A stretch of DNA of 35,448 nucleotides, from the NCBI GenBank assembly GCA_020726335.1, contig DYSU01000025.1:1-35448 (forward strand). The letters are read 5' to 3'. The stretch is from Thiomargarita sp. Lineage in GTDB: Bacteria > Pseudomonadota > Gammaproteobacteria > Beggiatoales > Beggiatoaceae. The stretch's first letter is position 1. Every line of letters starts with the position of its first letter. A model generated the notes under the pieces. It did not search any database, was not told where the DNA came from, and saw only the letters and a list, made by a program, of their open reading frames with translations. The translations under genes and the position numbers were made by a program. Below, one piece after another: positions 3,623-7,977 of the stretch.

Positions 3623-3628
3623 TTTCAG

Positions 3629-3660
3629 TACAGAAGTCAGCCACTGGCTTCTGTATTTTC
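3629..3660 (+). terminator. Intrinsic terminator after dsrE2
   Basis: TACAGAAG (3629-3636) pairs with CTTCTGTA (3648-3655). Inner CAG/CTG bases extend the stem, and TATTTTCC follows. It lies seven bases after the dsrE2 stop. It also sits just after the stop of the small minus-strand gene at 3662, so it may act on both strands. Confidence 0.75.
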
Positions 3661-3661
3661 C

Positions 3662-3823
3662 TTATCTCACCTTCTCATACCCACCGTCATTAAAGACTTT
3701 TCCTTTCTCCATAACAAGGCTTCCTTGGGTTTCAAACTGCATCATAACGTTGCTATAATCGGGTTGCGGTGTTGGCTTATCTGGATGTAGAATGGTTTTG
3801 ATGCTATTATGTGTTTTCACCAT
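3662..3823 (-). CDS. Small hypothetical protein (53 aa)
   Basis: Not recognised. A complete 53-codon frame starts at ATG 3823, preceded by AAGGTG five bases upstream, a good Shine-Dalgarno sequence. It begins MVKTHNSIKTILHPDKPTPQ and ends NDGGYEKVR. The composition is protein-like: soluble and charged, with no membrane segment, no cysteine and a Pro/Lys turn near residues 15-22. It is divergent from the nuclease gene, whose likely start is 3871, with only 47 bases between, and it ends against the dsrE2 terminator. Two perfect TATAAT boxes lie on the plus strand, at 3754 inside it and at 3834 in the gap. It could be a partner or antidote of the nuclease, or an unrelated orphan. No homology claim is made. 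Confidence 0.5.
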   Translation of the reverse strand: MVKTHNSIKTILHPDKPTPQPDYSNVMMQFETQGSLVMEKGKVFNDGGYEKVR

Positions 3824-3870: not shown

Positions 3871-4860
3871 ATGGCATTGTTGTTTTGTAAAAAATGTGGT
3901 CATTTATATGAAGTAGATAATAAATATCTTGATAAATTAGTTAAATGTCCGCAATGTGCTTTTGTCGTCAGGATCTATGATACTGTTTATTTTTTAAAAA
4001 AAATTATAGACAAATACCGAGAACAACAAAAAATTTTACAACAATTACAAAAAACACCCACAAAACAACCCGCACCATTAACCGATATACAAAAAAGAAT
4101 TGGAAGCAGCCAATTGCACAATACCACCGTTTTAACCCAACAAACACAATACGCCCCTGTTTTGGATTGGTTTAAACAAAAAAATATCAACGTGCAAATC
4201 AATCAAAACGCGCTGGATACCACAGGTTTTTTTGATGAAATCGCGTTGCACTTAGGCAATCAATACAAGTTGCTGGGCGAAATCATTGATAAAATCAAAT
4301 ACGCCCAAAGCAAAAGTTATACAGATGTCAGATTGACATTGGATAAAAAAAGCCAAAAAGAAATCGCAACCATCACACAATTTTGTCGTTTATTATATGA
4401 ATATTCTTTTGTCGCCAAATATTTTTACCAGAATAAAGAAAAAATCATCCGCTTAAAATTGCAAACAGCCGCCAAAATAGTCAAATTTTTTAACGGGGAA
4501 TGGATGGAATGGTTTGTTTTTATTCAATTATTGACTTATTGCCAACAAAAAGGCTTGCCTTATTCTATTTTACGCAATTTAATCGTTCAATTTCCCAATA
4601 AAGATTCACACGAATTGGACATTTTTTGCTTGCTTGACAACCGCATTGCTGTTTGTATTGAATGCAAATCAGGTGAATTTCGACATGACATTAAAAAATA
4701 TTCCAATTTACGCAAGCGATTGGGTTTGGATGAACGAAATTTTTTTCTCTGCGTTCTCGGCCTCAATCAGAAACAAACAGAAGGCATGACCAGCATGTAT
4801 GACTTTATTTTTGTCAATGAACAAAATTTTCTTCTGCCAATCACCCTTTTATTGGGATAA
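3871..4860 (+). CDS. Zinc-ribbon PD-(D/E)XK nuclease-like protein (Card1/DUF1887-type C-terminus)
   Basis: A 329-residue protein of unknown role. An N-terminal zinc ribbon has C6-x2-C9 and C26-x2-C29, of the MJ0042/zinc_ribbon_4 style. A charged, Gln-rich helical linker (about 40-95) follows, then a helical middle. The C-terminal part looks like a restriction-endonuclease fold: E213 in FFNGEWMEWF, D250 in SHELDIFCLL and E264/K266 in VCIECKSGEF give the E...D...ExK pattern seen in Card1/Can2 and DUF1887 proteins. No CARF sensor is present. Start 3871 is preferred over GTG 3811 because the ribbon begins there and AAAGG lies upstream. The gene is AT-rich (14 G+C in the 60 bases from 4381, against 33 in the 60 bases from 5581 in alaS), suggesting acquisition by transfer. 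Substrate (DNA or RNA) is unknown. Confidence 0.7.
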   Translation: MALLFCKKCGHLYEVDNKYLDKLVKCPQCAFVVRIYDTVYFLKKIIDKYREQQKILQQLQKTPTKQPAPLTDIQKRIGSSQLHNTTVLTQQTQYAPVLDWFKQKNINVQINQNALDTTGFFDEIALHLGNQYKLLGEIIDKIKYAQSKSYTDVRLTLDKKSQKEIATITQFCRLLYEYSFVAKYFYQNKEKIIRLKLQTAAKIVKFFNGEWMEWFVFIQLLTYCQQKGLPYSILRNLIVQFPNKDSHELDIFCLLDNRIAVCIECKSGEFRHDIKKYSNLRKRLGLDERNFFLCVLGLNQKQTEGMTSMYDFIFVNEQNFLLPITLLLG

Positions 4861-4885: not shown

Positions 4886-5346
4886 ATGATAATGTTGGAC
4901 AAAAAAAGTCATTGGGAAAAAGTCTATCAAGACAAATCACCGTTGGATGTCAGTTGGTTTCAAGCCAAACCTGAATTATCCTTAAACCTGATTCACGAAA
5001 CAGGCTTGCCCTGTGATGCGCCGTTGATTGATGTCGGCGGTGGGGCTTCTACGCTGGTGGATTGCCTGTTGGCCGCGCATTACACCCATTTATCGGTTTT
5101 GGATATTTCTGCCCGCGCATTGGCTTATGCACAAAAAAGATTGCAACAACAAGCAGATAACGTGCAATGGTATGCCCAAGCGGGGCGCAACAATGCAGTG
5201 GTCTGAATGTGGTGCAATATGATGCCGAAAAATTAAGCCACACGCTGGGACATGATTTTGAATGGCTGGCGCAACACGATGAAACCCATTTAACCCCAGC
5301 CAAAAAAACACAAAAATTCAGTTATTTTCGTTTCATGCGAAAGTAA
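4886..5346 (+). pseudogene. SAM-dependent methyltransferase pseudogene with internal deletion
   Basis: The 5' part (4886-about 5176) encodes SHWEKVYQDKSPLDVSWFQ, then the SAM-binding motif LIDVGGGASTLVD (about 47-59) and VLDISARALAYAQ. This frame stops at 5206. The 3' part continues in the +2 frame from about 5173 to the TAA at 5344-5346 and reads CPSGAQQCSGLNVVQYDAEK followed by the expected C-terminus ending FSYFRFMRK. In this family the N- and C-terminal parts are joined by a middle of roughly 50 residues (the DLWHDRAVFHFL region), which is absent. One out-of-frame deletion at about 5171-5180 explains both the missing middle and the frame change. The product would lack the catalytic half, so the gene is probably dead. 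alaS starts 15 bases later. Confidence 0.85.
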
Positions 5347-5361
5347 AAAAGCGAGCAACCC

Positions 5362-7977
5362 ATGACACAGCCAACCCCCAAAACCAGTGCGCAACTGCGC
5401 CAAGCCTTTTTAGATTTTTTTGCCCACCACCAACACGCCGTGGTCAACAGTTCGCCCTTGGTGCCTGACAACGACCCCACTTTATTGTTCACCAACGCAG
5501 GCATGGTGCAATTCAAAGACGTGTTTTTAGGCTTAGACACCCGCGCCTACAGCTGTGCCACCAGTTGTCAACGTTGTGTGCGTGCAGGTGGCAAACACAA
5601 TGATTTAGAAAACGTCGGCTACACGGCGCGCCACCACACTTTTTTTGAAATGCTGGGCAATTTCAGTTTTGGCGATTACTTCAAACGCGAAGCGATTCAA
5701 TTGGCATGGCAGTTTTTAACCGACGTGTTGCGCTTGCCACCTGAAAAACTGTGGATCACGGTTTACGAACAAGACAGCGAAGCGGCCAATATTTGGCTCA
5801 ATGAACTGAAAATCTCACCCCAACGCTTTTCGTATTGCGGCGAAAAAGACAACTTTTGGTCAATGGGCGACACAGGCCCTTGCGGCCCTTGCAGTGAAAT
5901 TTTTTATGACCACGGCGCAGAAGTCGCGGGCGGGCCACCCAACAGCCCCGATGCCGATGGCGACCGTTATGTGGAAATTTGGAATTTAGTCTTCATGCAA
6001 TTTAACCGCGATGCAGCGGGCAAACTCACGCCCTTGCCCAAGCCTTCGGTGGACACAGGCATGGGCTTGGAACGTTTGGCCGCCGTGATGCAAGGGGTAC
6101 ACAGCAACTATGCCATTGATTTATTTCAAGCTTTGATTCAAGCAACGGCCAAAGCCACCGACACCCGTGATTTAAACCATGCGTCGTTGCGCGTGATTGC
6201 CGACCACATTCGCGCCGCCGCGTTTTTGGTGGTCGATGGCGTGATTCCTGCCAACGAAGGGCGCGGTTATGTGTTGCGCCGCATTGTGCGCCGTGCGTTG
6301 CGCCATGGCCACCAATTGGGCGTGAAACAGCCGTTTTTTGCGGATTTGGTCAAGGCCTTGGATGAACAAATGGGGTCGGCTTACCCCGAATTGCGCGACA
6401 ACCAAGCGATGGTCAAACAAGTGTTGTTGCAAGAGGAAAAACGCTTTGCCGAAACCTTGGAACACGGCATGGTGTTGTTGCAACAAGCCATGACCGAATT
6501 GGATGGCTCACAAATTTCAGGCGATGTGCTGTTCAAACTGTACGACACCTACGGCTTTCCTGTCGATTTGACCGCCGACATCGCCCGCGAACAGGGCTTA
6601 AGCGTTGATTTGGCAGGCTTTGACCAAGCCATGCAACAACAGCGCAAACGCGCCCGCGCCGCCAGCCAATTTACCGCCGCTTGGGACAACGGTACACAGG
6701 CGATGGCCTACCGCAGTCAATTCATCGGTTATGACCACTTGAGCGGCGAAACGCAAATTCTCGTGCTGTTTTATCAAGGTCATGCGGTGGCGCAACTCAA
6801 CCAAGGCCAACACGGGCAAATCATTTTAGAGCAAACACCGTTTTATGCCGAATCGGGCGGGCAAATGGGTGACCAAGGTCAAATACAGCAAGGCGACGCG
6901 CTGTTTGTGATTGAAGACACCCAAAAAGCAGGCGATGCGGTGATACACAGTGGCCGAGTGGTGCGCGGTATCATCAATGACAGCGAAGCGGTCATGACCC
7001 AAGTCGATGGCGACAGCCGTCAAGCCACGGCGCGCAACCATTCAGCCACCCATTTACTGCACGCCGCGTTACGCCAGCATTTGGGCAAACACGTCAAACA
7101 AAAAGGTTCACAGGTCAGCGCGCAACGCCTGCGGTTTGATTTCAGCCATTTTGAGCCGATAAAATATGAGCCATTACAAGCGATTGAGCGCGAAATCAAC
7201 CAACAGATTTTGGCTTGCACCGCAGTGAAAACCATCCTCATGCCTTTAGAGCAGGCCAAAGCCAGCGGCGCGATGGCGTTGTTTGGCGAGAAATATGCGC
7301 ACGATGTGCGGGTTTTGACCATGGGCAATGATTCAGTCGAATTGTGCGGCGGCACACATGTGAAAAACATCGGTGAAATCGGTTTGTGTAAAATCATCAG
7401 TGAAACAGGCGTGGCCGCGGGTGTGCGGCGAATTGAAGCGATTACAGGCAAAGCGGCGTTGGCTTGGTTGAACCAAAATGAACAGCAATTGAATAACTTG
7501 GCGGATTTATTCAAAACTGAACGGCAGAATTTAACCAGCAAAGCCGAACAATTGTTGCGCCAAATCCGCGACCACGAAAAAGAACTGCACCGCTTGCAAA
7601 GCAAACTGGCCGCCAGCCAAGGCGATGATTTGGCCATGCAAGCGATTGATATTCAAGGTATTAAAGTGTTGGCCGTTCAATTGGACGGTGCGGACAATAA
7701 ACGTTTGCGCGATACTTTAGACCGCATGAAAAATAAACTAAAATCAGCGGCGATTGTATTGGCCGCCGTTGACGGCGATAAAATCAGCTTGGTGGCGGGC
7801 GTGACTTCAGCGGAAACTGAAAAAATCAAAGCGGGTGCGTTGGTCAATCATGTGGCGCAACAAGTGGGCGGCAAAGGGGGTGGTCGTCCCGACATGGCGC
7901 AAGCGGGCGGCAATCAACCCGCGCATTTGGCTGCCGCTTTAGCCAGCGTTAAAACATGGGTGGCGGCACAGTTTTAA
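5362..7977 (+). CDS. alaS: Alanyl-tRNA synthetase
   Basis: Class II aminoacyl-tRNA synthetase that charges tRNA-Ala and edits Ser/Gly mischarging. The 871-residue length is typical. The N-terminal catalytic domain has [20 protein letters not shown] (motif 1 region), [20 protein letters not shown] and the [11 protein letters not shown] loop. The editing domain has the zinc-binding pairs H560-SAT-H564 ([13 protein letters not shown]) and C662-GGT-H666 (ELCGGTHV). The C-terminal C-Ala domain (about 750-871) holds a glycine-rich [15 protein letters not shown] signature. A weak GCGAG purine stretch precedes the ATG. The 3' end may overlap the following glycosyltransferase frame by 22 bases. A promoter was not identified; it would lie inside the methyltransferase remnant. 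Confidence 0.98.

Follow-up and report, generated by a model that had tools for sequence, protein, structure and literature searches.

A predicted single-gene nuclease with a zinc ribbon and a Card1/Can2-type catalytic domain in Thiomargarita sp.

Results and discussion

A gene of Thiomargarita sp. probably encodes a single-gene, metal-dependent PD-(D/E)XK nuclease that carries the catalytic domain of Card1/Can2/Cdn1 and works free of CRISPR and cyclic oligoadenylate, a reading to which we assign a probability of roughly 0.6. Research on Card1/Can2 nucleases treats them as outputs of CRISPR cyclic-nucleotide signalling. The gene occupies positions 3871..4860 of the forward strand of the window (the whole stretch of DNA analysed, 35,448 nucleotides), starts with the ATG at 3871, ends with the stop codon closing at 4860 and specifies 329 amino acids. 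The reading frame, start and residue numbering of the original prediction (C6, C9, C26, C29, E213, D250, E264 and K266) were correct. The signal is far above chance, as seen from the lack of variation at these residues among 76 homologues of several phyla, the Pfam match and the low dN/dS. The order of the domains is as follows:

3871..4860, + strand: whole gene, encoding zinc ribbon, coiled coil, linker and Card1/Can2-type nuclease
3871..3981, + strand: zinc ribbon, residues 1-37, with C6, C9, C26 and C29 (alignment of 76 homologues and model)
3982..4053, + strand: predicted coiled-coil helix, residues 38-61, heptad core at 42, 45, 49, 52, 56 and 59
4054..4146, + strand: flexible linker, residues 62-92, with conserved N84-T85 (pLDDT below 50 at 62-82)
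4147..4857, + strand: Can2/Card1-type C-terminal domain, residues 93-329 (superposition on Cdn1 9u49 and Can2 7bdv)

A Card1/Can2-type nuclease domain with invariant catalytic residues

The C-terminal domain contains a G-F-F-D-E-x-A region and the PD-(D/E)XK core, and its relationship to Card1/Can2, as originally proposed, was borne out by Pfam, PADLOC, a profile search of the PDB and fold superposition. Specifically, the Pfam family Card1_endonuc (PF09002) matched residues 204-281 with 27.9 bits (E 2e-6; curated cut-off 26.4), and several relatives fall under this cut-off. The PADLOC model CARF4-CARF_PDDEXK matched residues 123-303 (E 2.9e-12) solely from profile position 164 onward, which is the part of the profile behind CARF. 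Additionally, a profile of the 76 homologues retrieved Can2 (7bdv, E 3e-6), VC1899 and Card1 from the PDB via the nuclease core.

The AlphaFold2 model of the protein reached a mean pLDDT of 88, and the top 19 Foldseek matches to it were all VC1899, Cdn1, Can2 or Card1. Residues 95-328 aligned with residues 149-399 of Cdn1 (9u49; Z 17.8, 3.6 A over 226 residues), and residues 93-329 with residues 139-365 of Can2 (7bdv; Z 17.4, 3.6 A over 203 residues), well above the Z of about 9 given by unrelated structures in the same alignment. The structure check proposed earlier therefore found a conserved PD-(D/E)XK core fold in the model, with Z 12-18 to Can2/Card1/Cdn1/VC1899. The helical middle noted before is present, but it is not an extra domain; it forms the first part of the Can2/Cdn1 C-terminal domain. 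Plain hhalign of both families aligned the nuclease core alone, and the match of the region ahead of the core is based on structure. Residues 130-208 resemble ribosomal protein S8 (Z 8-9), which was taken as a common arrangement. The viral structure library gave no match at E <= 0.001.

Five catalytic residues, E213, E248, D250, E264 and K266, were invariant across the 76 aligned homologues. Their equivalence to residues of Cdn1 and Can2 was assigned by motif:

4507..4509, + strand: E213 of the GEWMEW helix, equivalent to Cdn1 E274
4612..4620, + strand: acidic motif E248-L-D250, equivalent to Can2 E276/D278 and Cdn1 E308/D310
4660..4668, + strand: E-x-K motif E264-C-K266, equivalent to Cdn1 E323/K325

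The catalytic set is intact, as originally described; every residue on the earlier list held, and the list had omitted the equally invariant E248, the first acid of HELD, whose counterpart is Cdn1 E308 or Can2 E276. In Cdn1, a linker at 151-157 follows CARF and the active-site network consists of E274, E308, D310, E323 and K325 (PMC12825302), while E276 and D278 are the active-site acids of Can2 (PMC7969007). The protein very likely cuts nucleic acid in the manner of Card1/Can2.

A zinc ribbon and a coiled coil in the place of CARF

The protein has no CARF match, and only about 92 residues precede the shared domain, in agreement with the reported absence of CARF. The place of CARF is taken by a zinc ribbon, again as suggested before, with four invariant cysteines in the 76 homologues. 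The ribbon was modelled as four strands and gave weak matches to Zn_ribbon_8/FmdB in Pfam; its top Foldseek structure was ZitP, a weak match (E 0.11, Z 2.5) with which the cysteine spacing and the model agree. The coil that follows is short (about 24 residues), and its heptad core positions are 89% hydrophobic, compared with 28% elsewhere, the best of seven registers. Behind it, residues 62-82 are disordered in the model.

In several Thiotrichaceae genomes, the same ribbon and coil, heptad included, precede a membrane helix, and the ribbon of ZitP binds a protein, the polar scaffold PopZ (PMC5182065). These two observations hint that ribbon and coil may act as a docking and dimerising adaptor rather than as a nucleic-acid sensor. 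Most of the Thiotrichaceae ZitP-like proteins (L141-L146) end in a conserved YPYR-like sequence.

Other N-terminal arrangements were found on the same nuclease domain. A relative of 516 amino acids carries two zinc ribbons (L025, 679-2226), and a divergent subgroup (L027-L030) has the coil only, suggesting that the ribbon is dispensable in some versions. True CARF-Can2 proteins were also found in some genomes of the bacterial family of the window. For CARF-containing Can2 proteins at L112, L114, L116, L118 and L124 (genomes G005, G019, G021, G008 and G013), the genome gave no Cas10 palm match of any strength; either Cas10 was missed there, or these Can2 proteins act outside type III CRISPR.

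An AT-rich gene with a patchy distribution

The gene lies where the window is richest in A+T, with a G+C content of 33.2% (33.1% at third positions) compared with 47.2% for the whole window. The foreign base composition claimed originally was upheld, and the counts given for it, 14 of 60 bases at 4381-4440 and 33 of 60 at 5581-5640, were exact. In all 64 of 64 loci, the gene was AT-richer than its own flanks, with a mean difference of 8 points. This AT-richness stems partly from the amino-acid make-up, and the third positions of the window copy are also AT-rich. One copy (L060, 4144-5130) has 35% G+C amid surroundings of 60% G+C and is probably a recent arrival. Close orthologue pairs showed dN/dS values of 0.04-0.34 and are under purifying selection.

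The scan of species genomes yielded 206 related loci. Of these, 80 were retained; 76 sequences were aligned, and these 76 have the same architecture. The retained hosts include Desulfobulbaceae (with the cable bacteria), Thiotrichaceae, methanotrophs (Methylomonas), Zoogloea and other Betaproteobacteria, Sulfuricurvum, Nodosilinea and KSB3; the architecture is common to many unrelated water bacteria. Matches were found in 33 of 143 relatives, almost exclusively from the family of the window, and some were to the ribbon alone. Within the class, 9 of 369 genomes matched (E <= 1e-20), and in one genus bearing the gene 3 of 18 did. The homologues are thus patchily distributed accessory genes and do not form a uniform core set of known function.

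In the tree, the window protein stood beside Desulfobulbaceae and Sulfuricurvum, a placement that is not strong (SH-aLRT 87). A clade uniting it with the sequences of its own family was rejected (p-AU 0.007), in a test where the copies of that family may themselves be mixed. The gene has spread horizontally, also between phyla. With its AT-richness extending to third positions and its grouping with Desulfobulbaceae rather than its own family, the window copy was probably acquired. At one locus (L148, 3847-6098, - strand), two full-length copies lie in tandem. One or several stop codons interrupt each of four other copies (L042, 3558-4547; L045, 10001-11008; L050, 10001-10990; and L015).

A stand-alone gene in ordinary chromosomal surroundings

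In the window, tusA-like and dsrE-like genes lie upstream of the nuclease gene, and a broken methyltransferase frame followed by alaS lies downstream. The SAM-methyltransferase frame at 4886-5310 (+), right behind the nuclease gene, is a broken, shortened gene with a stop at 106 amino acids that continues in another frame. Two transcription signals were seen ahead of the nuclease gene:

3731..3759, + strand: promoter-like site TTCAAA-17-TATAAT with TG before the -10 element (such sites no more numerous in the region than in shuffles)
3627..3657, + strand: terminator-like hairpin after the dsrE-like gene (number in the region not above shuffles)

The hairpin behind the dsrE-like gene suggests that the nuclease gene is transcribed alone. 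It looks like a transcription unit of its own, on promoter and terminator matches that are no commoner than in shuffled sequence. SOS control was considered and dropped, as upstream LexA-type boxes were no commoner than in shuffles. An ORF of 53 amino acids at 3665-3823 (-), divergent from the nuclease gene, gave only weak matches elsewhere and may be a piece of some larger gene; it was rejected as a partner gene, as no convincing homologues lie beside other copies.

Across the 80 loci, no neighbour family recurred beyond close genomes, so that no conserved partner was identified; the gene stands alone. Its flanks are ordinary chromosomal genes, among them ispG, proA-nadD-rsfS, yjgA/DarP, hda, recQ and ABC transporters (names partly assigned by eye), and synteny is stable inside Zoogloea and Methylomonas. 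No defence islands were found, and the PADLOC matches in 116 neighbours were mostly cross-matches of the RecQ/DinG type. The neighbourhood survey gave no support to the earlier hint of a defence role. Moreover, no copies were found in phage records, PLSDB or IMG/VR, the IMG/VR scans relying on short peptide patterns.

No cas genes were present among the conserved neighbours, and no Cas10 passed the cut-off in the genome of the window. In the family, the Cas10 palm (E <1e-20) was detected in 5 of 18 genomes with the gene vs 3 of 10 without it; Cas10 is about equally frequent in both.

Proposed mechanism and biological role

In Can2-type enzymes, a CARF dimer senses cA4 and unites the two nuclease domains. 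In the proposed nuclease, CARF (about 140-150 residues) is replaced by the zinc ribbon, the short coiled coil and the flexible linker. The coil would keep two subunits permanently paired in a putative dimer, and the flexible linkers would keep the paired nuclease domains separate or idle. Binding of a partner, either protein or nucleic acid, by the zinc ribbon would then bring the pair to its substrate or close it into an active dimer. The ribbon would in this way supply the input that CARF gives in Can2.

The two main alternatives concern the role of the proposed nuclease, not its identity, and the evidence between them is balanced. Mobility, patchiness and effector kin lean to defence, whereas ordinary neighbourhoods and synteny within genera lean to a housekeeping or stress function on nucleic acids. 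A defence-type role has somewhat less than even odds; in that case the single gene would encode an effector against phages or plasmids, acting abortively or directly, with the zinc ribbon as its sensor. The nuclease domain is common to proven immune effectors (PMC7969007), the gene is patchy, AT-rich, horizontally spread and occasionally duplicated in tandem, and relatives differ by exchange of the N-terminal part, which may be CARF, a coil alone, or one or two zinc ribbons. However, no defence-island setting and no copies on mobile elements were found, and positions are conserved within genera, which speaks against such an effector. A nuclease that trims or degrades the nucleic acids of its own host, for repair, RNA turnover or quality control, as an accessory of aquatic bacteria, is a tentative possibility as well. 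It fits the chromosomal neighbours, the stable synteny in Zoogloea and Methylomonas, the strong purifying selection and the lack of copies found in phages, plasmids and IMG/VR, but the gene is missing from most relatives, has been transferred between phyla and occurs in tandem and disrupted copies, all of which is unlike an essential housekeeping gene.

Two further explanations are very improbable. One is that the protein does serve type III CRISPR or cyclic-nucleotide signalling, as an effector reached via a partner CARF protein; the common nuclease domain and the CARF-containing Can2 in some genomes of the family would agree with this, yet the protein itself has no CARF, and neither Cas10 above the cut-off in the genome of the window nor cas genes among the conserved neighbours were detected. 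The other, similarly far-fetched, is that it is decayed or inactive and does no more than bind nucleic acid, as the stop codons in the four disrupted copies might suggest; the catalytic residues, unchanged throughout the 76 intact sequences, and the low dN/dS speak against it.

Returning to the proposed CRISPR-independent nuclease, a wider interpretation, which we consider rather unlikely, is that the Card1/Can2 domain is a portable effector whose N-terminal input can be swapped between CARF, a zinc ribbon with coil, a double zinc ribbon and a coil only. The protein would then be a one-gene immune or surveillance nuclease without second messenger, and its ribbon would dock on a partner or a structure of the cell, one shared with the ZitP-like membrane proteins. 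A large, conserved and apparently CRISPR-independent family with another input module would mark the domain as a general effector. Additionally, the family offers a natural case for how nuclease halves stay off and are switched on without CARF, and the prediction can be tested directly with a single small protein.

Comparison with known systems

A search of the open literature found nothing on Card1 nucleases that lack CARF and carry a zinc ribbon, which does not prove their absence. For the N-terminal part, the nearest, if weak, structural likeness is to ZitP of Caulobacter (PDB 2nb9, of the zinc_ribbon_5 kind), in which an N-terminal four-cysteine ribbon is a targeting module (PMC5182065); ZitP has a membrane segment and DUF3426 and no nuclease, in contrast to the protein described here. 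CoCoNuT type IV restriction systems combine coiled coils and nucleases in a conflict setting, a likeness by description, and zinc ribbons are mentioned for them (PMC11090510). Unlike the single gene here, they are multi-gene systems of the McrBC type.

For the nuclease, the closest systems are Can2/Card1/Cdn1 (DUF1887, PF09002, CARF4-PD-(D/E)XK), which have the C-terminal domain, fold and catalytic residues in common with it. They differ in that the present protein has a ribbon and coil instead of CARF or such a cyclic-oligoadenylate pocket, and no CRISPR association was found for it. Strictly speaking, the protein is no Card1/Can2 effector, since the defining CARF domain and the CRISPR link were both tested for and found missing. 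VC1899 of Vibrio cholerae (PDB 1xmx) shares the nuclease domain (Foldseek E 1.3e-10, Z 15.0) and, unlike the present protein, a CARF domain; it was reported to be inactive in vitro (PMC7969007). Finally, the PADLOC entry PDLC01131 (PD_DExK, 'same family as the one fused to CARF') matched with E 2.5e-4. It is a profile of 205 positions from a catalogue of defence proteins, described without a zinc ribbon, and CARF-less nucleases of the Card1/Can2 family are already catalogued in PADLOC under this entry.
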